Made by a program: the position numbers and the translations under genes | Assembly (NCBI GenBank): GCA_019054805.1 | Contig: JAHQIY010000001.1 | Coordinates: forward strand, 6,648,501 to 6,712,500 | Source: Brachionus manjavacas | Lineage: Eukaryota > Rotifera > Eurotatoria > Ploima > Brachionidae | DNA: 64,000 nt | Direction of reading: 5' to 3' | Shown: positions 48,429-64,000 of the stretch, one piece after another | Layout: the number at the start of each line of letters is the position of its first letter | How positions within the stretch are numbered: position 1 is the stretch's first letter | Notes under the pieces: generated by a model | What the model saw: only the letters and a program-made list of their open reading frames with translations | What the model was told of the DNA's origin: nothing | Databases searched by the model: none

Positions 48429-49136
48429 TTAAGCTTTTATACCATAACCATAAACAACAGGATTGATAAATGTAATAAGAGCTCTGTTAACTCTATATTT
48501 TTTAAGTTCCAAATGATCATATGGCCCAGAGCTTAAAACTTTTTTCATATCCAAAAATTTACAATCCCCTAACGCTGGTTCAATTACTTTTTGCATACAC
48601 TTTCTAGTCTTGTTTTCATTATCAATTGAATGCTCCATAAAAATACAAACACCACCTGGTTTCAAAACTCGATAGATCTCGTTCATAACTTTTTTGTAAT
48701 CATCCACTGAACAGAGAATAAATGTGTGAACTACAACATCCATACTGTTGGACTCAATGCCGACCATTTCTTCAGCTTTGCTTACCACCAGCTTGGAAAC
48801 ATTCAAATCCTGTCGATTGTTTTTTTTGATCGACTCGTTTAAATAAGGCAAGAAAATGTCTGTTTTGTCAAGAATGGTCACATTAGAACCTTTTGGAAAA
48901 TGTTTGAAATTTTCTCCTGTGCCGATTCCAAGTTCCAAAATTTCCAATTGGTCATGCTTCTTGTTAGTTTTGACTTGAGAAATTGCTTCGTCGAAAAGTT
49001 TTGGTTTTACTACTTCAAGGTTCGAATGGACAAAATTCATCATAAAATTTAGAATAGCACCAAAATAAACTTTCATCAAGCATTTAAAAATTATCAGAAC
49101 TAAAACCAAGCCCACTAAAATGTATAGCCAAATCAT
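48429..49136 (-). CDS. METTL7-like membrane-anchored methyltransferase, paralogue 1, 235 aa
   Basis: A single exon from ATG 49136. An N-terminal hydrophobic anchor (IWLYILVGLVLVLIIFKCL) precedes a class I SAM-dependent methyltransferase fold. Motif I is LELGIGTGENFK, the acidic/post-I region is VTILDKTDIFLPYL, motif IV is DVVVHTFILCSV, and LKPGGVCIFMEH follows. The C terminus NPVVYGYGIKA is typical of the METTL7 (TMT1) family. Characterised METTL7A/B enzymes sit in the endoplasmic reticulum or lipid-droplet membrane and methylate small thiols; the substrate here is unknown. Intronless, unlike most genes in the window. A minus-strand AATAAA overlaps the region just after the stop. It is one of four same-strand paralogues between 48.4 and 59.7 kb. 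Confidence 0.93.
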   Translation of the reverse strand: MIWLYILVGLVLVLIIFKCLMKVYFGAILNFMMNFVHSNLEVVKPKLFDEAISQVKTNKKHDQLEILELGIGTGENFKHFPKGSNVTILDKTDIFLPYLNESIKKNNRQDLNVSKLVVSKAEEMVGIESNSMDVVVHTFILCSVDDYKKVMNEIYRVLKPGGVCIFMEHSIDNENKTRKCMQKVIEPALGDCKFLDMKKVLSSGPYDHLELKKYRVNRALITFINPVVYGYGIKA

Positions 49137-50113
49137 TTTATTTTTTAAAAATTATCTTAAAACCGAATAAATTTATATAATGCCAAATTTAATAATAAAT
49201 GTGCTTGTTTAATACAAAAATTTAATTGCTTTATCATTATGACAGTATCAAGCATTCCTTTTAAATTATGCATGCATGTTTTATTTTAAAAAAATTTTAT
49301 TAAATGATGCTTGCATTTCATTTTGATCCAAATTAACTTTAAATCAATTTATTTTAGATTTTAAAAGACAAACAATTCGAATTATTTATCATAATTTGTT
49401 GTTTTTACGCTGAATTTTTTTAATTTTTACTTTAAAATTCACTTAATAAGTTAATAAAATAATAATTTAAATTAAATTTTATTTACAAAAGAGCCATTTC
49501 TAGTCTAGAATAATAATAGATAGTAAAAAAAAACTCGAAAAATTAATTAATTTATTAAGTGAAAAAATAAATGAAAAAATAATCACCAAAAATGTTTTAT
49601 TCCTAGAAATGATAATTTCTAGGAATAATATTTTTTTTTTCTCTAAAATTCTACATAATTGAAGAAAATAGTCATTTTTTTCAACTTTATTTGCTTCATT
49701 ATGAACATGTCACAATTTTTGTTTTATACTTCTTTATTTTTCCCTCTATTAGCAAATAAGTAAAGCAAAAAAATAAAAATGATTCGTTAAATACATCTTT
49801 ATACATCGAAATTCTATGTTAAAATACAGTATGTTTTGTTAATTTTTTTAAGATTTAATCATCTTAAAAATTTATTTATAGAAGAAAGGTTTTTTCTTTG
49901 TAATGACTACCAAAATAACAAGAAAATTAAAAATTTTAGTGAATCTTTTTCATAAAAATTCACAGACAAGTGATCTTGATAATATAAGATTGCATTACAA
50001 AATGATTTTACGTCTTGATTTTAAAGGCAAAGTTAAGGGAGAATAGTAAGTTATGACATATTTCCAAAAAATACCTATATTTGATTTATAAAATTCAAAA
50101 TATCTGTGAAACA
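49137..50113. other. AT-rich stretch with a hairpin
   Basis: A perfect 14-bp stem, TTATTCCTAGAAAT and its complement, lies at 49597-49628 with a 4-nt loop. A short frame from ATG 49903 to TAG 50046 (47 aa, lysine-rich) is not recognisable and probably chance. Confidence 0.4.
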
Positions 50114-50115
50114 TA

Positions 50116-51322
50116 CCGTAAACGCTTGCAGACTACTCCAGGGCTTAACCTCATTTTCCGGATTTATTCCACTGGAATAGTTCCCATCGACACCATGTTA
50201 AAACATTTTTTTTTAATTTTATGGAATTGTGATAGATTTTTTGATTTATTCTAAGATTAAAACCCAATATTGAGTTTTTTTCCTGGCTTATTTCTGAGTT
50301 TTTTTTTTTTTTCAAAAACTGGAATTAATTAGAAAAGAATAAAAAAAATATTTAATTTCGATATATTCCATATTTAAAAATGTAAATTGAGTTTTATTCC
50401 AGGATTCAAAGTGGAAAAAAAATTTCAACGGGATGATTTTGATGAGAGTTTAATAATTGATTCATTCGATTCTTGTGGTATAACTGGTCAATCACACTTA
50501 CATAGCACTCTTAAAAACTTAGTCAACAACAATTTGATTTTTAATTCATATATAGATGATTTAGAAGAGGAAGAAGATATTTTAGGTTTGGACAACGTAG
50601 ATGAAATTGATGTAAATCTTAGAGAGCTTGTGTTAGAAGAGAATACATCAATTGAAGCAAATCAATCAAGTCCTGAACAATTAATAACCAGTCCAGAACA
50701 AAGTCAAATACAATCGTATCAAAATCCACCTAATTCAACTCCAATAAATATTCAAACACCAGAAACAGATGAAAATGTCAATCAAATTGGTTCTCCAGTA
50801 ACTTCGAATGAAGCTCAACCACGATTAAATGGTCGATATGTTCTTAAAGAACTAAATAATCAGCAAAATGTAAATCAACCAAATGTCTCAAATTCTTCGT
50901 CAATCACGATTCAAAAGCTGCCAAAAAAAAGAGGAAGAAAACCTCTCCCTCGTGACGAAAATGGAAAAATAATAAGACAACAAAACTTGTAAATCCAATT
51001 TTTTAAAACTTTAAATTTTTTTTTCCACTTTGAATCCTGGAATAAAACTCAATTTACATTTTTAAATATGGAATATATCGAAATTAAATATTTTTTTTAT
51101 TCTTTTCTAATTAATTCCAGTTTTTGAAAAAAAAAAAAACTCAGAAATAAGCCAGGAAAAAAACTCAATATTGGGTTTTAATCTTAGAATAAATCAAAAA
51201 ATCTATCACAATTCCATAAAATTAAAAAAAAATGTTTTAACATGGTGTCGATGGGAACTATTCCAGTGGAATAAATCCGAAAAATGAGGTTAAGCCCTGG
51301 AGTAGTCTGCAAGCGTTTACGG
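50116..51322. mobile_element. DNA transposon with 310-bp inverted repeats and TA target site
   Basis: The arms 50116-50425 and 51013-51322 are nearly perfect inverted repeats starting CCGTAAACGCTTGCAG. The element is flanked by TA on both sides, the target used by Tc1/mariner/pogo elements. The 590-bp interior carries only a C-terminal transposase-like frame, so this is a deletion derivative. It has inserted between methyltransferase paralogues 1 and 2. Confidence 0.92.
50387..50992 (+). pseudogene. C-terminal piece of a pogo-like transposase
   Basis: An open frame with no ATG begins inside the left arm, possibly after the acceptor-like TTTTATTCCAG. It includes ESLIIDSFDSCGIT, which resembles the post-catalytic 'I..SF..CGI' region of pogo/Tigger transposases. 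An acidic segment, a Gln/Asn/Pro-rich linker and a terminal KKRGRKPLPRDENGK (AT-hook-like) follow. The DNA-binding and DDE domains are missing. The assignment as a transposase tail is moderately supported by the motif and by the TA target site. Confidence 0.6.
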
Positions 51323-51379
51323 TAAAATTTAAAAAAAAATATCTTAAATATAAGTAAAATAATACTTAATGAACAACAA

Positions 51380-51586
51380 TTATTCAGCATTATCTATGTT
51401 GAGTTGTTTAAAACCAAAAAAATTACTACTCTTTTCTTCTATTAATTTTGTATCTTTTGTACCTTTTGAATAAAGTTCAAAGCCAAGATAGTACATGTTT
51501 TCGCTTATAACTAAGTTTTGTCTATCTAAAGTAATTAACCATTGCCAAATGTCTAATCTGCCATCTTGCGAATTTCTAGTGACAGT
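51380..51586 (-). CDS. orphan exon-like frame, unrecognised, 68 aa
   Basis: On the minus strand, 68 sense codons without an ATG run to TAA at 51380-51382. The peptide is convincingly protein-like (RLDIWQWLITLDRQNLVI, then YYLGFELYSKGTKD). An acceptor-like CACTAG sits near its beginning. It could be the last exon of a gene whose upstream exons were displaced by the transposons at 51.6-52.3 kb, or a fragment of an unknown mobile element. No family recognised. Confidence 0.35.
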   Translation of the reverse strand, partial: TVTRNSQDGRLDIWQWLITLDRQNLVISENMYYLGFELYSKGTKDTKLIEEKSSNFFGFKQLNIDNAE

Positions 51587-51641
51587 TTAAAAATTCTATG
51601 ATTTCTTTTAATGAATATTTTAGCTATAAATTGTTTATTTG

Positions 51642-52294
51642 GTCAGGTCCTGATGCCGCTTCAAAAAAATTTTTTTTCGGTCCAAAAAAAATTTGTCCGC
51701 GGCCGGACCGCTGAAACGGACGGTCTAAAATGCGGCCTGCCATAAAAAAGGGGGGGTGGTAAGTTCATTTCAATTCGATCGTTTCAATTCAGAAAAACTT
51801 GAATAACTTTTTTACTAAAAGAGATAATTTAGTTCTGTAAAATGCTCAATGGTATAGCAACTTTGCTTAATCCAAAAATAAATGTCTGCAAAAACTCTGC
51901 AATGTAATTGCACACTTGATTGGAATACTTTTTAATGGGGTGCAAAATGCAGAAAATTGCAGAGTATTTTGCAGACTTATTTTCCTGCATTAAGCAAATT
52001 TGCTTATAATTAAGCATTTTACAGAACTGAATTATCTCTTTTAGTAAAAAAGTTATTCAAGTTTTTCTGAATTGAAACGAACTTCACAACCCCTAAAAAA
52101 GGCCATGGACCGCCATTTGGACCGGCCGCTTTTTTGACCGGCCGTTTCAGCGGTCCGGTCGCGGTCAAATGTTCTTTTAAGAAAAAAAAGCTCTTTTTTT
52201 TTTGAAAATTAAAAAAAAAATTATTTTGGCGGTCCATGGCCGCCAGATTTGGACCGCTAGTTGGCCGGCCAAAATTGGCCGTCTGCCAGCACTA
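51642..52294. mobile_element. GC-rich MITE with a second MITE nested inside
   Basis: The outer unit has unusually G/C-rich inverted flanks built from GGACCGC/GCGGTCC and GGCCGG motifs. Its right end, read inward, is TAGTGCTGGCAGACGG; the left end CAGGTCCTGATGCCGC is only loosely similar. Nested inside (about 51760-52092) is an A/T-rich element with 65-bp, near-perfect inverted repeats at 51782-51846 and 52013-52077. That inner unit ends ACTTCACAACCCC, as does a diverged relative at 60.5-60.8 kb. No coding capacity. Confidence 0.75.
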
Positions 52295-52721
52295 TAATTT
52301 TACTTGTCAACATATTCAGTTTTTTTTTGGTCTCCACTCATAAAGTTTTAGCCAATTTTAATTAAATAATTTAATTTATTGTATCTAGAAAACATATTTT
52401 CAATGCAGGTTTTTTATCTTTAACCTAATCAAAAAATGGTTTTTTGAGTAGTTGAGTGTTATGAGTAAAAAAGTAAATAATTTTATTAATTCATTTTTTA
52501 CAGAATTTAATAATTAAATGAATACTTTCTTGTTTAGTAAATTAAATACCACAACAGTCTGGAAAAAATGGTTTACTTTTCGATAGAAGAAAAAAAATTA
52601 AAAATTAACAATTAATTAATTCGACTCCTTGGTAAAAAGCTTTTATAAATATTTGGTTAAAAAATGCGTCTAAAAGTAGATATTTTATTAAAATAACTTA
52701 AAATTATTTAGTTTTATTTAT
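52295..52721. other. AT-rich stretch
   Basis: No feature seen apart from the presumed 3' UTR of the next methyltransferase gene at its right edge. Confidence 0.4.
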
Positions 52722-53435
52722 TCATTGAATATAAGATTTAGTTCCATAACCATAAACAACCGGGTTCATAAAAGTAATGAGAACTCGATTTATTTCATAA
52801 TTTTTCAGTTGTAATTCTTCATAAGGACCAGAGCTTAAAATTTTTCTCATATCTAAAAACCTATCACCTAAAATTATGGCCATGACATTCTGTAATAATC
52901 TTCTTTTTTTACTCACATTGTCAATTGAATGCTCCATAAAAATACAAACACCGCCTGGTTTTAAAACTCGATACACCTGATTCATTACCTTTAAATGATC
53001 ATCAACTGAGCAAAGCATAAATGTGTGAACTACAACATCCATACTGTTGGACTCAATGCCGACCATTTCTTCAGCTTTGCTTACCACCAGCTTGGAAACA
53101 TTCAAATCCTGTCGATTGTTTTTTTTGATCGACTCGTTTAAATAAGGCAAGAAAATGTCTGTTTTGTCAAGAATGGTCACATTAGAACCTTTTGGAAAAT
53201 GTCTGAAATTTTCTCCTGTGCCGATTCCAAGTTCCAAAATTTCCAATCGATTATTTTTTTTGGTGCTCTTTATTTTTGAAATTGCTTCGTCAAAAAGCTT
53301 CAATTTGACTGTCTCCAAATTCGAATGTATAAATCTCATTATTAAATTTAAAAAAGCACCTGAGAAATATTTCATGAAAACTTTTAGGAGCACAATCGGC
53401 ATAGCCAAAGCGCCTATAAAGTAAATCCAAATCAT
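52722..53435 (-). CDS. METTL7-like methyltransferase, paralogue 2, 237 aa
   Basis: A single exon from ATG 53435. It has the same layout as paralogue 1: an N-terminal anchor (IWIYFIGALAMPIVLLKVFM), motif I LELGIGTGENFR, VVVHTFMLCSV and LKPGGVCIFMEH, ending in NPVVYGYGTKSYIQ. DNA at about 53018-53201 is identical to paralogues 1 and 4, whereas the 3' third of the gene is clearly diverged. The segment encoding SKIKSTKKNNRLEIL is shared with paralogue 4 but not with 1. This patchwork indicates sequence exchange between copies. Confidence 0.93.
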   Translation of the reverse strand: MIWIYFIGALAMPIVLLKVFMKYFSGAFLNLIMRFIHSNLETVKLKLFDEAISKIKSTKKNNRLEILELGIGTGENFRHFPKGSNVTILDKTDIFLPYLNESIKKNNRQDLNVSKLVVSKAEEMVGIESNSMDVVVHTFMLCSVDDHLKVMNQVYRVLKPGGVCIFMEHSIDNVSKKRRLLQNVMAIILGDRFLDMRKILSSGPYEELQLKNYEINRVLITFMNPVVYGYGTKSYIQ

Positions 53436-54410
53436 TTTAAATTTTCTTTCAAAAAATTTTCAAAAAAATTATTCTTGATAAAAACGAATGCAATCATCAT
53501 ATTTAAGTCTAAAAAATTGCCTGATCATTATGAAATTTAAAAAAAATAATGCTAGACTCGATGAATAGAAAAGTAAATGTTAATTATTTAAGCACCCTAG
53601 ATTTTTTTATTTTTACAATTTTTTTTAAGAAAATTTTTAAACCTTGGAATAATATGCAACTGTTAAAAATTCAAATTATTTAAATAAATTATTATCAACT
53701 TGATTTTGAAACAATAATGTCATCTCTAATTTCAAATTACTTTTTTATCTTGAATTGCACGTTTTTTCAATTATGCATTAATATAATAAATTATAGAAAA
53801 TTTTTGTAACTATTTTTGTATATTATTGTTTTTCTTTTTTTTTATTTATTTCGCTAACAATTACTTTAATTAAATGTTTTGTTTCTATGGCACTATTGAG
53901 GATGAACATTTTATCTTAAGATTTCGTTTTATTTTAATTTTCATATATTTGGCATTGTGGTATTTTGAACAAAGAATAAAAATAAAAATAATTTTTTTTT
54001 TAGATCTAAAGTTATAGGCTAAATTATAATACCGCATGCAAGGCCAAAATTTGTTTTCCTATTCATTCAAATTCTTTTTTAAGTTCTAAATTTTTAAATT
54101 ATTTCAATAGTGCTACGCCATGATGATTTTCACTAAATAATCATAAATAAACGATAATTTACGTATATTTACGAAAAAAAATAACAAAATGCTTTTTAGC
54201 GTAAGACAATTTTGTAAAATTCCGTATATTTTCGCAAAATTTCAAAAATTCCGGTAATTTTATGTAAATTAACCCATTCAATAGAAAATAAAGAACATAA
54301 AAGCTCTTGTTTTTCTTATTTTTTCTACAGTTTCGCTTAAAGAATTGATTTTTTCAATTTTTTTTTCACTAAAAAAATGACTTATAATTTAATTTGAGAT
54401 ATATTTTTTC
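53436..54410. other. AT-rich stretch with degraded repeat near 54.1-54.3 kb
   Basis: The segment 54.12-54.27 kb repeats short ACGTATATTTACG/AAATTCCG-type words and may be an old repeat. It could not be delimited. Confidence 0.35.
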
Positions 54411-57403
54411 TGTACTATATATTAATTTTTTTGTACCATAAAAACACTGTACTTAGAATATTTTTCTTGTGTACTATATCTTTACGGAATGTACCATAAA
54501 AGTTAGCGTTTTGTACCATAAAAATGATGATTCTGTACTAAGAAATTATCTTTTACTGTACTAAGAAATTACTTTTAAAAATTTTTAAATTTATTGAAAA
54601 TAAACGAACTTAAATTATACCGCACATAAAAAAATAGTTTTATAATCAAAGTAACGATTAACAAGAAATACAATTAAAATAATAAAAAATACAAATACAT
54701 AAAGTTTTTAAATCTTTCTTGGTCTTAAGACTCTATTTGATTTTGATGCTTCTTTAGGTGCATTTTCTTTATTACTTGTAAAAGATTTAGTTGCTTTTTT
54801 CTTACTTTTATCATAATTTAAACCGAAAGTGGGTTTAAAAACCAAAAGGTCTTTATTAACATGGTCATTTAATTATTGTTGTTTTGGTGATGGTGACGTT
54901 GGTTGTGGTGATGGTGGCAATTGGTTGTGGCGATGGTGGTAATGGCTTTGGATTAAAATCAAAATCAGCTATTTATTTTTTCTCTTCTGTTGGCAACTCA
55001 TTCTCATTTTCTTCGTCTTCATTTTCATAATCTGATTCTGTTAATTTAGCATCATCATGTTGAAAGAATAAAGCAGCTTTTGCTTTTTGTGGTCGCCCGC
55101 GTTTTCTCTTTTGACCAATAGGAATAGTTTTAGCCTCATTAGGTATAATTGTTAACTCTTTAATAGATGCTATGCCAATAATATGTTTACACATTTTAAA
55201 TTTGAAATTACTAGGACAAGAACAACTTGCTGTTCTCCAAGTATCTTCAGATGCATTTAAAGGAAAAGATACTTTCCAAATACCAAAACAAACACTTGTA
55301 AAGTCATTAAAATCTTTAAAATTAGCCGAATCGAATGCCTGTCTATATGCTTTTACTTCTCCTTTTGTTATTTCAGTCTTATAGTCTGATCTTTTAACGA
55401 AATAATGGATACCAGTATCATCTTTAATGCTTAGTGTTTTCTTCTTTAAATGGCTCCATTGATAAGCACGAGTGTATTGCTTGGTTCCAATCGTTGGTAA
55501 TGCACAAAACTCTTTAAAATTAGGATTTTGAGGATCTCTTTTAGTTGACCAATCTTTTACAATATTGAATGCTACGTTAAAGAACACACCTAATTCCAAG
55601 CGTTTTCTTAAAGTCTTTTCTTTTTTTATTTTTGAGTTGTAGGATTCAAGTCCATTATTGGTACTTGGATACCGTTTAATAAAACCTTCATACCTCCCAG
55701 AATAAAGATTAAGCCATTCTTGCTTAAAATGAAGCAAAAAGTCTTTCATTCATTTGTCGCTGCTTTTTAACCATTTCTTCATAAATAATTTTGTACCAGC
55801 TTGAAATACCCTGTTGTCTTGACTTATCTGCAGCATGTCTATGTCTTGGATGACATTTAATTGATTTTGTTTATCCAATATCAGTATCTTTTCTTGTACA
55901 GCTTTTCTCATGTGAAACCAGCACACACCGCGATAAAAATCCTTACCAAAAATTTCACTTAAACCATTTGTAATTGAATCAGCAGCATCAGCTAATAAGT
56001 CAACATTTTTAAGTCTCTCTAGGCCTAATTTTTCAATACCAATTTGTAATGATTCAAAAATAAAGGAAAAATCTGTTGCTTCCTCATTACTACACACAGC
56101 CATGCCTAGTGGATGAAATTTATTGTCCATATCTGACGTACCAACTATAAGCACGGGAAATCTTTGCCAAATTAATTTATAGGTAGCGTCTGCTTGGCAA
56201 ACTTTAGCACGTTTAGCAAGTTTCAGGATGCGTTTAGTTGAAAAGATTTGTCTTAAGTGACGATTATGAATGCGTGCTTTAAATTCATTTGATTGTGATA
56301 CTTCATCGCCATCAACTTTTACTTGATAAGTTACCAGAAAAGGTTCATCTTCACCATCTTTAACTTAACAATTCGATTTACACCATTCAATTTATGTACC
56401 AAAGTTGAATTTACAACTATTACCGGTGGTCTCTTATCTAGTCTTGCATTGAATCCAAATAATTGACGTAATGTAGGTATAACTAAATCTGGTATTCCAT
56501 CTTCTTTCTTTTTTTCTAGTGCATCAACTATCTTACTTGGTAATGTTACGCCTTTAATAAAAAGTAAACTTTTAATAGCACTTAAAGATATATTTATGTC
56601 TATTAATTTACCTATTGCTCTTAATTCTAGAATTTTCTCTTGTGTCATTTGATGAATACCATGTTGCTTTTTGTTAAGATTTATTTTATCATGATCGTGC
56701 GCAGCTTCAGTCTAAAACAATGACACATAATGGTTCTCATGATGACACAGCAGTTGTATAGCACAGCTACATTGAGGACCTATTTTCTTTACCATATTAC
56801 AACGATAAGAGACAAGTAAACCGTTGTCATTTTCATGTTCATTCCTAAACGACCATACTTTTCACTTTCTAAGCATTTCGTTGCATCTTTAGCATTGTTG
56901 AATTTTTCAACGAAAACATACTTCTTCTTCTTAGTCTTTTTATTGGTAACAACTTCATCTTGTGACTCTTCTTCGTCATTCGGAGACATATAGTCTTCTA
57001 GCTCTTCAAATTCATCAAAATCATAATTATTATTCTTTTTATAAGCCTTAAAATAAATTTATGTTTTGAAAGCACATTTATGTTTTAAAATATAAATACG
57101 CCATAACAAGTTTCTAAAACTCAGTTTATTTTTTGTCACGTTACTATTTAGACTTTGAACAAACAATTAAATGTTCAGTACAAAAAATTAATGTCTGGTA
57201 CACAAAAAATTATTTCTGGTACAAAACATTTAATTTCTCGTACAAAAGATTTAATTTATGGTACAAAAAAGTGAAACGTAAAGTTATGGTCTCAATGATT
57301 AAAATAAACTACAAATCATTAATTCATGGTACAAAAGATTAATTTAAGGTACAAATACATTGATTTTATGGTACAAAAAAATTAATTTATGGTACAGAAA
57401 AAT
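54411..57403. mobile_element. MULE (Mutator-like) transposon flanked by inverted tandem-repeat arrays
   Basis: A broken MULE transposase on the minus strand (54973-57046) lies between two arrays of short tandem repeats in opposite orientation. The left array (about 54411-54572) repeats TTTTGTACCATAAAAAT/CTGTACTAAGAAATTA, with eight TGTAC-centred units. The right array (about 57177-57403) repeats GGTACAAAAAATTAATTTAT at about 21-22 bp spacing, with nine GTAC units. Because they are mutually inverted they may serve as the element's terminal repeats. Exact ends and target duplication (9 bp expected for MULEs) could not be fixed. Confidence 0.75.
54973..57046 (-). pseudogene. MULE transposase, decayed
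   Basis: Reading the minus strand from 57046: an acidic start; a FLYWCH/WRKY-like zinc-finger region with SYRCNMVKKIGPQCSC and CHHENHY; a spacer; and the DDE core. The core includes VCQADATYKLIWQRFP (first Asp), LLADAADSITNGLSEIF with GVCWFHMRK (second Asp plus CxxH) and TNNGLESYNSKIKKE (Glu). A SWIM zinc finger, CSCPSNFKFKMCKH, and a basic KRKRGRPQK tail follow. The catalytic residues survive, but there is an in-frame TGA at 55750-55752, a frameshift near 56370 and at least one more near 56830, so the gene is inactive though rather young. It sits between methyltransferase paralogues 2 and 3. Confidence 0.88.
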
Positions 57404-58059
57404 TGACATCCATTTAATTTTTCGTAAATTTATAAAAAATTAAATTTTTTGAAAAAAAATTTTGGTAAAATCTAATCAAAAAGAGAAAATTTTTGAATTA
57501 TATTTTATTTTATTATATTTGGCTAAAAGTTTTTAGTAATTAAATCAGTCTCTTTTTTTTCAATAACTATTTTAATTACCTATTCTTTTCTACGCTACAC
57601 AAGGACCTTTTTTAAGTTTTTTTAATGAAAAAAGCATTTTTCGCTAAAGTTTTATACGTGATCTTTAAAAAAATTACGATCGTTAAATAATGTGATCATA
57701 ACCGATCACAGACCGACCAAGGACGTGTTGATCACATAATTGGGGATCGTGGAGATCAAGCCTACATGAACATTCTTTTTAAATTACCTTTAAGTAGTTA
57801 ATTTAAATAGATGATAAAATTAATAATATATAATTATTTGAAATTAATTTTATCAAAACATATCATTATTTTTGTTTGTTGTTTTAGGTCCTGTTTTTAA
57901 TTAAGAAGGTTCGAGTAGATGTATAAAGATGTCTTAATATACAGAAATTACCATCCAGAGAGACACTAAAAATTTAGCATACATATTTACCAGTTAACTA
58001 ATATTTACCAGTTTAAAAATTTATTTAAAAATTAAATATAAAAAATTTCTTTGGAAATA
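57404..58059. other. AT-rich stretch
   Basis: A G/C-richer patch near 57.68-57.77 kb contains several GATC words (TGATCAT, CGATCAC, TTGATCACA). No gene seen. Confidence 0.4.
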
Positions 58060-58767
58060 TTAAGATTTAGCTGATTTAACACCATAACCATAAACAATAG
58101 GATTTACATGAGCCAAGTAAAACTTGGGAATATTGTGCTCTTTAATGACTAATTCTTCATACAAACCATCTTTGATGACTTTGTTCATATCCAAAAATTT
58201 GCAGTAATTGAAAGGGTTTTCTAGCAGCTTTTGTAATAGTTTTCTTACTAAATTATTGTTATCCAAAGAATGCTCCATAAATATACAAATACCACCTGGT
58301 TTTAAAACTCGATAAATCTCGCTTAGGACCGAATGATAATCACTTACACTACATAACATTAAAGTATGTACAACTACGTCCATGCTGTCTGACTCAATTT
58401 CTACCATTGACTCAGCACTATTTAGAACTAATCTAGAAACATTTAAATCTTGGCGATTATTTTTTTTAATCGAATCATTTAGATATGGCAAAAAAATATC
58501 AGTTTTGTCAAGTATGGTTACATTTGATCCACGAGGAAAATTCTTAAAATTTTCACCACAACCTATTCCAAGCTCTAGTATTTCAAGTCTTTCACTTCTG
58601 CTTGTTTCTAGCCGTGTGAAAGCTTCTTGAAAATGTCTCGACTTTAACTCGACCATATTTGAATGTATACTCTTCATTAAAAAGCTTAGAACTGTGGGAT
58701 AATACAATTTAATTAAAAGTTTAATGACGAAACAAGTTAACAAGATTCCAATCAAAAATAAAATCAT
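58060..58767 (-). CDS. METTL7-like methyltransferase, paralogue 3 (divergent), 235 aa
   Basis: The first ATG in frame is at 58767 (MILFLIGILLTCFVIKLL, the membrane anchor); the frame is open for 14 codons further upstream but without ATG. Motifs are present: LELGIGCGENFK (GCG instead of GTG), DVVVHTLMLCSV and LKPGGICIFMEH, with the C terminus NPIVYGYGVKSAKS. Unlike the other three, its central DNA segment does not share long identical tracts, so it seems to have escaped the sequence exchange affecting its neighbours. It lies only 176 bp downstream of paralogue 4 on the same strand. Confidence 0.93.
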   Translation of the reverse strand: MILFLIGILLTCFVIKLLIKLYYPTVLSFLMKSIHSNMVELKSRHFQEAFTRLETSRSERLEILELGIGCGENFKNFPRGSNVTILDKTDIFLPYLNDSIKKNNRQDLNVSRLVLNSAESMVEIESDSMDVVVHTLMLCSVSDYHSVLSEIYRVLKPGGICIFMEHSLDNNNLVRKLLQKLLENPFNYCKFLDMNKVIKDGLYEELVIKEHNIPKFYLAHVNPIVYGYGVKSAKS

Positions 58768-58943
58768 TTTTTTACTAATTGACAGAGTTCTCAATTTTAG
58801 ACTTTTCAAATCAAGATTTAAACTACCAAAATATAAAAATAAATTTTTTTAAAAAATTTTTTATATTTAGATTTCAAAATTTGGCATGAAAAATTATTTA
58901 TTTTTAGAAAATTAAAAAAAAATTCTAAATTTATTCAAATTTT

Positions 58944-59654
58944 TCAATTTATATTTTTTAAACCATATCCATACATAATTGGATTTACCAATGCCATCCA
59001 AAATTTATTAATATGATATGTTTTTAGTTCCAAATGATCATATGGTCCAGAGCTTAGAACTTTTTTCATATCCAAAAATTTACAATCGCCAATTATTGGC
59101 CCTATTATTTTTTGGATGTATTTTTTGGGCTTCTTACTGAGATCAATTGAATGCTCCATAAAAATACAAACACCACCTGGTTTTAAAACTCGATAGATCT
59201 CGTTCATAACTTTTTTGTAATCATCCACTGAACAGAGAATAAATGTGTGAACTACAACATCCATACTGTTGGACTCAATGCCGACCATTTCTTCAGCTTT
59301 GCTTACCACCAGCTTGGAAACATTCAAATCCTGTCGATTGTTTTTTTTGATCGACTCGTTTAAATAAGGCAAGAAAATGTCTGTTTTGTCAAGAATGGTC
59401 ACATTAGAACCTTTTGGAAAATGTTTGAAATTTTCTCCTGTGCCGATTCCAAGTTCCAAAATTTCCAATCGATTATTTTTTTTTGTGCTCTTTATTTTTG
59501 AAATTGCTTCGTTGTAAAAATTTTTTTTTCGTGAGTCAATATTATTGTGAAGAATTTTCATCACTAAGTTTAAAATGAATGGACGAAAAATTAATGATAT
59601 CACTTTAAAAGTAAATAATGGAACATAGCTAAAAATTAATAATGAACAAAACAT
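58944..59654 (-). CDS. METTL7-like methyltransferase, paralogue 4, 236 aa
   Basis: A single exon from ATG 59654, with N-terminal anchor MFCSLLIFSYVPLFTFKVIS. The catalytic core (ILELGIGTGENFKHFPKG through LKPGGVCIFMEH) is almost identical in DNA to paralogue 1 over about 328 bp (one mismatch seen). The flanking N- and C-terminal parts differ, and the stretch just before motif I matches paralogue 2. The C terminus reads NPIMYGYGLKNIN. It is the most upstream member of the cluster in transcription direction. Confidence 0.93.
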   Translation of the reverse strand: MFCSLLIFSYVPLFTFKVISLIFRPFILNLVMKILHNNIDSRKKNFYNEAISKIKSTKKNNRLEILELGIGTGENFKHFPKGSNVTILDKTDIFLPYLNESIKKNNRQDLNVSKLVVSKAEEMVGIESNSMDVVVHTFILCSVDDYKKVMNEIYRVLKPGGVCIFMEHSIDLSKKPKKYIQKIIGPIIGDCKFLDMKKVLSSGPYDHLELKTYHINKFWMALVNPIMYGYGLKNIN

Positions 59655-60501
59655 GATATTTATTTTTTTCGATAAAATGAAAAGTTTTTTTTGAAGGTTG
59701 AATCACGAATTGTTTAATAAAATATTTTCAAGAAACAAAAATAGACATGATATATTTTTTTAGTATGAATGAACTTGAATTAAGCAAAAATTCTCTTAAA
59801 ATGCAAATCATTTCTAATGCCTAAAATTTTATTTATTTTAGAAATATTTAAATCTTTTTTTTTGTTTTGAATTTTTTTCATTTTCTTATTTTACTTAATT
59901 TCAATTTTTAATAGCCAAACGTAAACAATTGAATATTTTCTGAATTTTAGTTTAATACAATAAATTCTTTATGATTAAAAATCTAAATGCGATTTTTCTA
60001 ATGTGTTTTTTTGAGGCATTTAGAAGTTTATGATCAATTTTTGATGCTCAAAATGATCTAATCAATTTTTAATTATTAATTGTTATTGTTTTGTGTTGAA
60101 TGTCTAGAATATGAAAAAAAAGTCTTAATCGAATTTATAAATGAGCTGTTCACGTTCCAAAACAGAGGCTTAGTTGACTCAGTAAAGTTTTTTGTTCATA
60201 ACATTAGAATTGCATTAGATAGTAATTTAACTTTTTACTTTTATTTTGACTACTTTAATCTTTTACTTAAGCCTGCAATTTCTTAATTATTTAGATTTTT
60301 TTCTCTTTTTACCCATCTTTTATGTAATCTGACTTTAAGATTTTTATAAAATTTTAAATGGATTAATTATTTATGAAACTTAATGTGATTTAAATCAGAT
60401 TTTTTTTTTATTTTCTTTGTAAAATTGTAATTTAAGTTACCTTTTAAACTTGCCTATGAGGCTTAAATTTTTTTATAAATTAATAAACAAAAATAAGTGC
60501 A
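59655..60501. other. AT-rich stretch upstream of the methyltransferase cluster
   Basis: The promoter of paralogue 4 should lie in its left part. A 68-codon frame at 60080-60286 is probably chance. Confidence 0.4.
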
Positions 60502-61013: not shown

Positions 61014-61694
61014 TTATTTTTTTTTTCTTTTAGAACTTTTAGGTTCAAGTAGATCATCGTTTTCTCTTTTTGATGAAGTTTCTTGACTCTTGACTGCTTC
61101 TGATCCTTGCTGTCTTAATTCTTTGTAGTGTTCATAATTAGCTTGTCCAGGAACACTTCGAACAAGCTTCCAGGCTTCAATAAATTCCTGTCTCGTTTTT
61201 CCTTTTTCATTGGCAAAAAAATCTCTTTGAAATTGATTGTATTGAAATTGTGGCAAAATCTTGGTCTTATAATCCGGCTTTTTCTTTTCCTCTTCTTCTT
61301 TTTTCCATCCATCTATCAAATCACCATAGGTCAAATTTAAATTTGAATTATCTTGCTTGGCAAATGCTCGCAAATATCCATTGAAACGAAAATTTGAACC
61401 AATATGCTTGGTGAAAAACTCTTTTGTCCTCGCATCGTTTTTATAATGCCTTACTTTAGTCGTTTTGGTTATTTGACCATCACTATCAAGAGGCAAAGAA
61501 ACTTTAACTGATTTAGAACTTATTTTTTTCCCCGAATTTAAAAATTCTGCAATACGTTCGGTTATTTCTATTTTTCCGCCATCTGTAGATATACCATAAT
61601 TATTACAGAAAGCGACAAGTTCTTTCTTATCCCAATAAAATTGTTTAAAAACCTCGGCATTTGTGTTTTTTTTTAATTCTGGTCTTGTAGACAT
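61014..61694 (-). CDS. SAP/DUF6434-type protein of bacterial character, 226 aa, intronless
   Basis: I place the start at ATG 61694 (MSTRPEL), because family members as I remember them begin with a short MxRPEL-like peptide. An upstream in-frame ATG at 61745 would add 17 basic/hydrophobic residues that could act as a mitochondrial presequence. Residues 13-55 form a SAP/HeH-like helix-extended-loop-helix (EVFKQFYWDKKELVAFCNNY, then TDGGKIEITERIAEFL). Residues about 80-190 match the DUF6434-type region: YKNDARTKEFFTKHIG, FRFNGYLRAFAK, DYKTKILPQFQYNQFQRDFF and EAWKLVRSVPG. That pairing is best known to me from short bacterial proteins of unknown function, thought to bind nucleic acid through the SAP fold. 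The last 35 residues are a charged tail with SKR and SKRKKK clusters, absent from the bacterial form as I know it and resembling a nuclear-localisation signal. Acquisition by horizontal transfer is an inference. Confidence 0.8.
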   Translation of the reverse strand: MSTRPELKKNTNAEVFKQFYWDKKELVAFCNNYGISTDGGKIEITERIAEFLNSGKKISSKSVKVSLPLDSDGQITKTTKVRHYKNDARTKEFFTKHIGSNFRFNGYLRAFAKQDNSNLNLTYGDLIDGWKKEEEEKKKPDYKTKILPQFQYNQFQRDFFANEKGKTRQEFIEAWKLVRSVPGQANYEHYKELRQQGSEAVKSQETSSKRENDDLLEPKSSKRKKK

Positions 61695-62902
61695 TTTTAA
61701 AATTTCTAGATAAAATAATCTATTTATTAATAATCTTTTGATCATAATTCTAAATTTTTTTAAAATTATGAATAATCTATTTGTAAAAGAGAAGTTATCC
61801 AAAATAACATTAGAAAAATAAAATTACACTATTATAGAATATGGAAGATATTATAATTTCACAAATATAACTTAAATAATCATTAAATTAAATTTTCATA
61901 ATACATTTATAAATTTATTCAAAAAACAATTAAACATAAATTTAAGTTTATTTTAGAGGCTAATTAGACATAAATGATCAGAATTTGGATACAATTAATA
62001 AATAAAGTAGGGATGTAGGGATGCTGTAAAATATCATAATAAATGTAAAATATCGAATAAACGGAAATCTGACATTTTTAAAAATTACCATTCTGCTGGA
62101 TTAATATTTTTACAAAAATTTAAAGTTTTAAAATTCGAATTTTTGTATAAGCCAGCATTAAAGCAGAGTTGTTTAAAAGTAACAAGCCTAAAGTCAAGTC
62201 CAAGTCTGGACTTTTTTAATTTTAATATTTTAATTATTTTAATTTGGAACTTTTAAACAACTTTACATCAAAGTTTCATGTTAAATTTGCTATATTAAAT
62301 TTGAACTGTATAACTGATTTTGTAAAAAAATTTGGTTCAGTAAATTGAAAATTGATTCAAAATATCCACATTATCATTAATCCGATTAAATCTTTCAATT
62401 CAGTCTAACCATAACCCCCTCGATTAGTCCGAATTAAAAAAATCCTGCTGAACCAATTTAGCATTTTTAATTTATTTTTATTTTAATTCTTTTTTTTATG
62501 TTACAAGAATTGGTTTTTTACTAAATCAAATAAATGTATAATTAACTAACATTTAGCGAAAAAGTAATTAAAATTCGGATAATTAAAAATTTCACTGCTT
62601 AAATTTTTTAATATTAATAAAATCTTTTTATTTTTTTGCTATTTTTAAAAAAATTAAATATGTTAAGTGATGAAATAATAATAAAAATATTTCAATTTTC
62701 TGATGATGTTTTGCTTTCATTAACTAGAATTTTGATTGATGCGTTTTTAAGCTCGATTTCTAATTATAATTTAGCAATAAGTAAAAGATAACGGTTTATT
62801 ACAACCATCATATAAAATATTTAAAATAAATGTGATAAATCAAAAATAAAAATAAGTTTATTATTGAAGATTTAGAAATTTTTCTATTTTATTTTTAATG
62901 TT
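61695..62902. other. AT-rich intergenic stretch with a tiny MITE
   Basis: It contains the 96-bp inverted-repeat unit at 62167-62262, listed separately, and otherwise no recognisable feature. Confidence 0.4.
62167..62262. repeat. 96-bp inverted-repeat element (tiny MITE)
   Basis: Perfect 14-bp ends AGTTGTTTAAAAGT (62167-62180) and ACTTTTAAACAACT (62249-62262) enclose an AAGTCTGGACTT palindrome. It is preceded by CAG, as in hAT elements, and is related at its start to the fragment at 27.64 kb. Confidence 0.65.
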
Positions 62903-64000
62903 TTAATGATCTAAAATGTCCACTATTTCAGTAAATTTATTGTTTAAAGCGATGTCTTTTGGCAAAAAACCGTCATTATCTCTTATTTGTTGATTTGCAT
63001 CAAATGTCACCAGAAGCTGAACAATATCTTTTTTATTTTCAAGTGTGGCAACATGCAAGCCAGTGCGTCCATTTGAATCGCATTCATTTATATCCTGATC
63101 TTCTTCAATGAACGAAATAACACTCTCATAAAATCCATTGCCACATGCATAGATGAACGGTGTTGTGTCCACCTTCCAATTAATGTCTCTTTCATGATCT
63201 TCATTTTTAATCATCGAAATTAAATCGTAGCACAATTTTTTAATGCTCGCTGACTCAATTAAAAGTGTATGCGAAAGATTAAATAAACTACCAATTTCCA
63301 GCTGAATGTCATGCCTAACTCCGATCATTATCAAAGAATCTAAGCCCATGTCAACAAAACCCATATTTTCGTCAAGCTCTTCATTGGTGCCCAAGCGTTT
63401 TCTAATTATGCTTTCAATTTTTTCTTTTAAAATCTGATATCCATCATTTTTATTAGTTTTCTGTAAAAGCATGCCTATATTTTGTTCATTGGTATTTTTG
63501 GGAAGGATGTTTTTGGTTAGTTTACTAAAATACTCAGTGTATCTTGTACCTTTTTTGGCCAACAGATCCCAATTGGCTTTAGTAATCAAAATTTTTTCGC
63601 TATTGTGGCAAATAGCAGTTCCAAGCAAATCGAATCCTTGTTCAAGTGTGAATGATTCAAATCCATCTTTTCGCAGTGAAGACACATACTTTGTGGCCAT
63701 ACCTTTTTGAGCCCAAGCACCCCAAGCAATACTCTGGCCTGCTAGACCCATTTGGCGACGTGACACAACAAGACTGTCAAGAAAACTGTTTGCTGATGTG
63801 TAATTCGACTGACCAGAAGATCCAATCCATGCTGTCAATGAGGAGAACACCACGAAATATTTCAAATTTTTGTCTTTGGTTAACTGATGAAGTAAATAAG
63901 AGCCGTACACTTTAGCCTGGTATACTCTATCAAAATCGTTCCATGATAAATTTTGTAAAGTTTTATCCTGTAAAACTCCAGCTAAGTGAAATATGCCAGT
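62903..64000 (-). CDS. type I polyketide synthase, 3' end (KR-ACP-ankyrin), partial
   Basis: The frame is open from the right edge of the window to the stop at 62903 (365 aa visible), so this is the C terminus of a much larger gene. First comes the end of a ketoreductase domain: GIFHLAGVLQDKTL, then FSSLTAWIGSSGQSNYTSAN with the catalytic Ser and Tyr, and NSFLDSLVVSRRQMG. An acyl-carrier domain follows with MGLDSLIMIG; Ser 222 of the visible part is the phosphopantetheine site. The last 90 or so residues are two to three ankyrin repeats (TTPFIYACGNGFYESV; NGRTGLHVATLENKKDIVQL; DGFLPKDIALNNKFTEIVDI). There is no thioesterase or reductase at the end, so product release must occur in trans or through another domain. 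No intron is seen in the visible part. The ankyrin tail after ACP is unusual. Confidence 0.93.
   Translation of the reverse strand, partial: TGIFHLAGVLQDKTLQNLSWNDFDRVYQAKVYGSYLLHQLTKDKNLKYFVVFSSLTAWIGSSGQSNYTSANSFLDSLVVSRRQMGLAGQSIAWGAWAQKGMATKYVSSLRKDGFESFTLEQGFDLLGTAICHNSEKILITKANWDLLAKKGTRYTEYFSKLTKNILPKNTNEQNIGMLLQKTNKNDGYQILKEKIESIIRKRLGTNEELDENMGFVDMGLDSLIMIGVRHDIQLEIGSLFNLSHTLLIESASIKKLCYDLISMIKNEDHERDINWKVDTTPFIYACGNGFYESVISFIEEDQDINECDSNGRTGLHVATLENKKDIVQLLVTFDANQQIRDNDGFLPKDIALNNKFTEIVDILDH

Follow-up and report, generated by a model that had tools for sequence, protein, structure and literature searches.

A SAP_new25/DUF6434 gene of bacterial type on an animal chromosome, beside a large biosynthetic cluster

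The gene and its domains

We analysed a stretch of 64,000 nucleotides (the window; C1:6648501-6712500 of the 12.1 Mb contig C1) from an animal genome assembly of 114.17 Mb in 61 contigs. Its subject is a protein-coding gene on the minus strand that combines a SAP_new25 domain with a DUF6434 region. An earlier note, made from the letters of the window, had described it as an intronless bacterial-type gene with a SAP-like N terminus and a DUF6434 region, and had suggested that it was transferred and domesticated for nuclear use. The features of the gene are, in window positions:

61014..61694, minus strand: SAP_new25/DUF6434 protein-coding gene, 226 aa, intronless (ATG-to-TAA frame, Pfam)
61512..61652, minus strand: SAP_new25 domain (PF18953), residues 15-61 (Pfam)
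61299..61478, minus strand: DUF6434 (PF20026), residues 73-132, first helical-hairpin repeat (Pfam)
61134..61268, minus strand: second copy of the DUF6434 hairpin module, residues 143-187 (profile-profile match, uncalled by Pfam)
61017..61100, minus strand: Lys/Arg-rich C-terminal tail, residues 199-226, beyond the bacterial homology, resembling a bipartite nuclear localisation signal (NLS)
61695..61745, minus strand: in-frame upstream extension with an ATG at 61745, probably 5' untranslated (homologous start at 61694)

Both predicted domains were recovered by Pfam above their gathering cut-offs, SAP_new25 with 66.6 bits (cut-off 26.3, E 1.5e-18) and DUF6434 with 34.7 bits (cut-off 26.8, E 1.8e-8). 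The classical SAP profile (PF02037) reached 12.8 bits, under its cut-off of 23.9, and no NCBIfam profile matched the gene product up to E 1. The 226-codon frame is not a product of chance: when 2 kb of flank was shuffled 2000 times, the open runs reached 120 codons at most. No intron interrupts the stretch homologous to bacterial relatives, all of which is covered by one frame.

Bacterial relatives and the position of the gene in trees

GTDB was scanned with one peptide pattern; 427 of 450 stretches were confirmed and the best 80 of these were kept, which shows that the family is broad in bacteria. The closest GTDB relatives were copies in Legionella metagenome-assembled genomes (MAGs), 51% and 47% identical to the window gene, the first of them across residues 3-193. 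They were followed by an uncultured proteobacterium (45%), an Amoebophilaceae bacterium (43%) and many Bacillota at about 40%; a Gammaproteobacteria MAG was 50% identical across 140 residues. Of 143 genomes that belong to the same order as the top Legionella genome, 8 had a match at E ≤ 1e-6, the best of them (G053) at 48% identity and about as strong as the first Legionella copy. The corresponding counts were 17 of 291 genomes in the order of the Amoebophilaceae genome, a sample drawn from a larger group, and 2 of 14 in that of the uncultured proteobacterium. Twenty plasmid records also matched, 13 of them conjugative and ten covering at least 80% of the query. The bacterial gene therefore occurs on chromosomes as well as plasmids, and in the five loci viewed its gene company varied. 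The bacterial proteins share with the animal gene the domains, their order, the start and the conserved residues, at up to 51% identity, and the homology runs to about residue 196. The animal gene differs from them in its location on an animal chromosome and in some 28 extra residues that form the basic tail.

Three maximum-likelihood trees were built in careful IQ-TREE runs from bacterial loci and the window gene. The 84-row tree started from 85 plasmid and GTDB loci, of which three with internal stops were dropped and three were cut at the stop, and also held a copy from contig C21 of the same assembly. The 58-row tree combined 33 loci selected from this set, seven of the eight Legionellales loci and 17 of the 18 Bacteroidota-order loci with the window gene; removing four divergent rows and the truncated L047 gave the 53-row tree. 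In the 84-row tree the window gene fell into a seven-row clade (support 100/98) with Sinorhizobium medicae, two Legionella, a gammaproteobacterium, the uncultured proteobacterium and the Amoebophilaceae copy; the program listed it among the long branches of this tree, whose bootstrap was not fully settled. In the 58-row tree a three-row set received 95/84, a seven-row clade 99/95 and a 15-row clade 99/97. The 53-row tree gave a six-row clade (99/93), a 13-row clade (100/99) and the three-row set at 96/79, no longer starred. Among the sampled bacterial rows, the three trees place the window gene in a Legionella-rich clade. The bacterial type proposed earlier is supported by this placement and by the closest sampled relatives, which are bacterial.

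The groups for the approximately unbiased (AU) tests were named after inspection of the trees. A single clade of all 22 Bacteroidota rows was rejected (p 2e-7), which means that the Amoebophilaceae copy has moved between phyla. Since this copy stands apart from other Bacteroidota, and amoeba-associated bacteria from two phyla are found among the closest rows, the gene might not have come directly from a bacterium. A eukaryote or giant virus of the amoeba gene pool could have been the vehicle, or the gene could belong to a eukaryotic family, with bacteria and the animal both drawing on that pool. Amoebae are described as a ground for gene exchange in the available part of PMC11323580. Among viral proteins the structural search gave a single significant match, a Terrestrivirus protein (A0A3G4ZLW3; E 5.8e-6, 25% identity); however, the IMG/VR scans of viral sequences confirmed no relative of the window gene. 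This and the breadth of the family in bacteria make such a route unlikely.

Twenty-seven positions are conserved at 85% or more among the other 57 rows; the window gene retains 26 of them, as does the median relative, and is therefore probably functional, as judged from its sequence. The GC content of the gene is 0.320, compared with 0.226 and 0.192 in its 1 kb flanks, and that of third codon positions (GC3) is 0.229. The codon use is thus AT-rich like that of the host, as had been noted before, but this is not diagnostic: the closest Legionella gene is equally AT-rich (GC 0.305, GC3 0.215), so a likeness to the codon use of the host does not point to long residence.

Structure, tail and location in the cell

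The structure model of the protein was all helical, with a predicted local distance difference test score (pLDDT) of 88 and low confidence in the tail region. Residues 143-187 matched the first DUF6434 repeat in a profile-profile comparison (probability 97.7, E 1.9e-12). One helical module is thus present in tandem, as DUF6434 and again in the C-terminal third, a reading that makes the DUF6434 architecture testable. The SAP part gave weak fold matches to the SAP regions of DEK and a 3' exonuclease and weak profile matches to Hcc-1, SIZ1 and DEK, and SAP-domain chains ranked near the top of the profile search. The likeness to these eukaryotic proteins is confined to the SAP region, and even there the classical Pfam cut-off was missed. 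Eukaryotic SAP domains are known mostly in nuclear proteins, and the window protein is likely a nucleic-acid-binding nuclear protein. In the most economical mechanism the SAP domain would bind nucleic acid and the repeats would provide accessory contacts.

The residues that follow the matched stretch in the 85 plasmid and GTDB loci number between 0 and 30. The longest of these tails (L013) is not basic, and the 17-residue tail of L018 closes with a short basic stretch. A bipartite-NLS-like pattern was found anywhere in the protein in 10 of 107 other rows (the C21 copy included), and within the last 30 residues in one of them. A five-residue basic run arose in 2.6% of tail shuffles. The basic tail is a real difference from nearly all relatives; a nuclear function for it is conjecture. 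Two Legionellales relatives (L117 and L121) carry N-terminal extensions with basic, bipartite-NLS-like stretches, as seen by eye.

The upstream ATG at 61745 lies in frame and opens a 17-codon extension, which the earlier note had considered as a source of a possible mitochondrial presequence. While this open frame exists, the starts of the bacterial genes line up with the ATG at 61694, which is the homologous start. The protein might nevertheless act in mitochondria or the cytosol instead of the nucleus, either because the upstream ATG adds a presequence or because the tail, which ends in A-rich codons, is an unselected extension. Given the inner start and the mostly nuclear occurrence of eukaryotic SAP domains, we regard this as possible but doubtful.

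Our preferred reading, to which we assign a probability of roughly 55%, is that a SAP_new25/DUF6434 gene of Legionella or other amoeba-associated bacteria passed into an ancestor of the animal and was retained as a working single gene, encoding a compact nucleic-acid binder that is most likely nuclear. The transfer, its direction and the expression of the gene are what we infer. The SAP helices would contact DNA or structured RNA, the two tandem DUF6434 hairpins would supply a second contact surface, and the protein would most likely be a small, nuclear, chromatin-associated factor, the basic tail perhaps aiding entry. Several results weigh against this reading. The AU test did not reject the window gene outside the 14 bacterial rows (p 0.085) or outside the six (p 0.22), so that a position inside the Legionella-rich clade and one sister to it both stand. 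The tail fits the bipartite pattern with two basic clusters 10-12 residues apart, but 22% of shuffled tails fit as well. The idea of a transferred and domesticated gene is partly supported, by the bacterial type, the location on an animal chromosome, the single close copy, the conservation and the placement by trees in a bacterial clade. Its nuclear part is weaker: the added tail is present and rare among relatives, whereas its signal is weak.

Chromosomal setting and the neighbouring NRPS/PKS cluster

The window gene itself was the single match to its product in the genome at E ≤ 0.001. The SAP_new25 search of the genome returned 33 matches up to E 10, with two further sites above the cut-off, on C17 (26.9 bits) and C37 (26.4 bits, with a stop), both short frames barely over it. 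The DUF6434 search gave the window match and a weak one on C21. Three SAP_new25-like matches of equal score, slightly below the cut-off (C4:325028, C8:2507780 and C17:225965), were also seen; they are perhaps a repeated element carrying a SAP domain.

Left of the gene in the window, Pfam identified two pieces of a Cys-loop receptor that lie in separate frames (Neur_chan ligand-binding and Neur_chan membrane), a piece of an inositol phosphatase and one methyltransferase. Four similar methyltransferase-like frames stand in tandem at window 48432-59702, adjoining the SAP gene; one was tested with Pfam and the others were judged by eye. LINE-like (long interspersed nuclear element) fragments were also seen by eye on this side; a single LINE-like frame and a single transposase-like frame were compared with Pfam, and neither matched. 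On the right, a nonribosomal peptide synthetase/polyketide synthase (NRPS/PKS) cluster is followed by IF4E and tubulin genes. As eukaryotic genes flank both sides within the 12.1 Mb contig, the SAP/DUF6434 gene and its neighbouring cluster are both part of an animal chromosome. The description of the gene as lying among intron-bearing animal genes fits the left side, with its split receptor and inositol phosphatase, but not the right, where the neighbour is a 4689-codon intronless frame.

Bacterial sequence is present in the assembly: a full 16S match lies on C45, and C21 (1.22 Mb) carries bacterial-type genes (U32 peptidase, helicase, photolyase-like) together with the only COX1 match of the assembly. 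Bacterial contamination joined to the contig through misassembly is nevertheless very improbable, with AT-rich, host-like flanks, eukaryotic genes on either side and no close copy of the gene on other contigs. C21 has a SAP/DUF6434 gene of its own (20.9 and 21.5 bits, under both Pfam cut-offs), but at 22% identity to the window gene this contig is not its source.

The features of the cluster and its surroundings are:

62903..64000 of the window, on to C1:6725472, minus strand: C-terminal end (ketoreductase (KR), acyl carrier protein, ankyrin) of a 4689-codon intronless NRPS/PKS frame (Pfam)
C1:6711403-6765856, from window 62903: NRPS/PKS cluster of about 55 kb with giant open frames
C1:6727077-6728030: phosphopantetheinyl transferase (PPTase), after the first NRPS/PKS frame
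C1:6766978-6767967: copy of a condensation-domain segment of the first NRPS/PKS frame, adjoining the ABC exporter
C1:6768882-6772067: ABC exporter with two membrane and two ATPase stretches, beside the cluster

The giant frames have 4689, 2922, 4867 and 2384 codons and encode six ketosynthases as well as condensation, adenylation, KR, dehydratase, methyltransferase and thioesterase domains. Six of the nine strong ketosynthase matches of the genome lie here; the other three are in a 2518-codon frame on C6, perhaps a fatty acid synthase, on C21 and on C14. Three of the four giant frames end in ankyrin repeats identified by Pfam (at C1 6711403, 6755698 and 6765856), and two begin with ankyrin-like stretches seen by eye (N-termini at C1 6732363 and 6758705); such ends are possible docking domains between subunits. 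The 2922- and 4867-codon PKS frames overlap at C1:6741098-6741128 in different reading frames, which may reflect an intron, two genes or a frame break. Two modules of the first frame (L097 and L098) share, by eye, a long near-identical stretch after the ketosynthase, which suggests recent duplication or conversion.

The first NRPS/PKS frame ends 1.2 kb from the SAP/DUF6434 gene in the same orientation, and one relative of the gene, on a Sinorhizobium medicae plasmid (L144), lies inside a PKS-NRPS operon with SagB dehydrogenase, cobalamin-dependent and PPTase genes. The gene and this cluster, rich in ketosynthases, might thus have arrived as one biosynthetic island, the gene serving regulation or self-protection. 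We compared the first NRPS/PKS frame alone with 111 bacterial loci, whose flanks reached up to 4 kb and were often shorter: only the Sinorhizobium locus was similar, and weakly so, and none of the Legionella or Amoebophilaceae loci was. The wider S. medicae cluster is 21-39% identical, which is generic for such enzymes. With such a link in one of 111 loci, the nearness of gene and cluster may be coincidence, and a joint arrival is improbable. Slightly less probable again is the idea that a non-bdelloid animal uses a gene from amoeba-associated bacteria as a nuclear regulator or protector of the adjacent ankyrin-docked NRPS/PKS line; if true, a foreign regulator and a large biosynthetic machine would form one functional locus.

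Gene transfer from bacteria into animals is well documented in bdelloid rotifers and more thinly elsewhere. The available portion of PMC11258130 describes horizontally acquired bacterial genes of bdelloid rotifers, where, as here, genes of bacterial type are kept in an animal genome; it also describes bdelloid NRPS/PKS clusters, some flanked by ABCB1-type transporters. The present genome gave no match, at up to two mismatches, to the known rotifer spliced leader and is therefore probably not that of a bdelloid. In the accessible text of PMC10531068, many NRPS genes are reported in bdelloid rotifers and none in Brachionus calyciflorus, and in that of PMC11258130 no NRP/PKS matches are given for B. 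plicatilis or B. calyciflorus. Should the animal be a monogonont rotifer, the NRPS/PKS cluster would be new there, as these accounts, as far as they go, report none in the Brachionus screened. The SAP_new25/DUF6434 gene is an intact, conserved and chromosome-anchored probable case of such transfer, and its relatives suggest that the gene pool was that of amoeba-dwelling bacteria.
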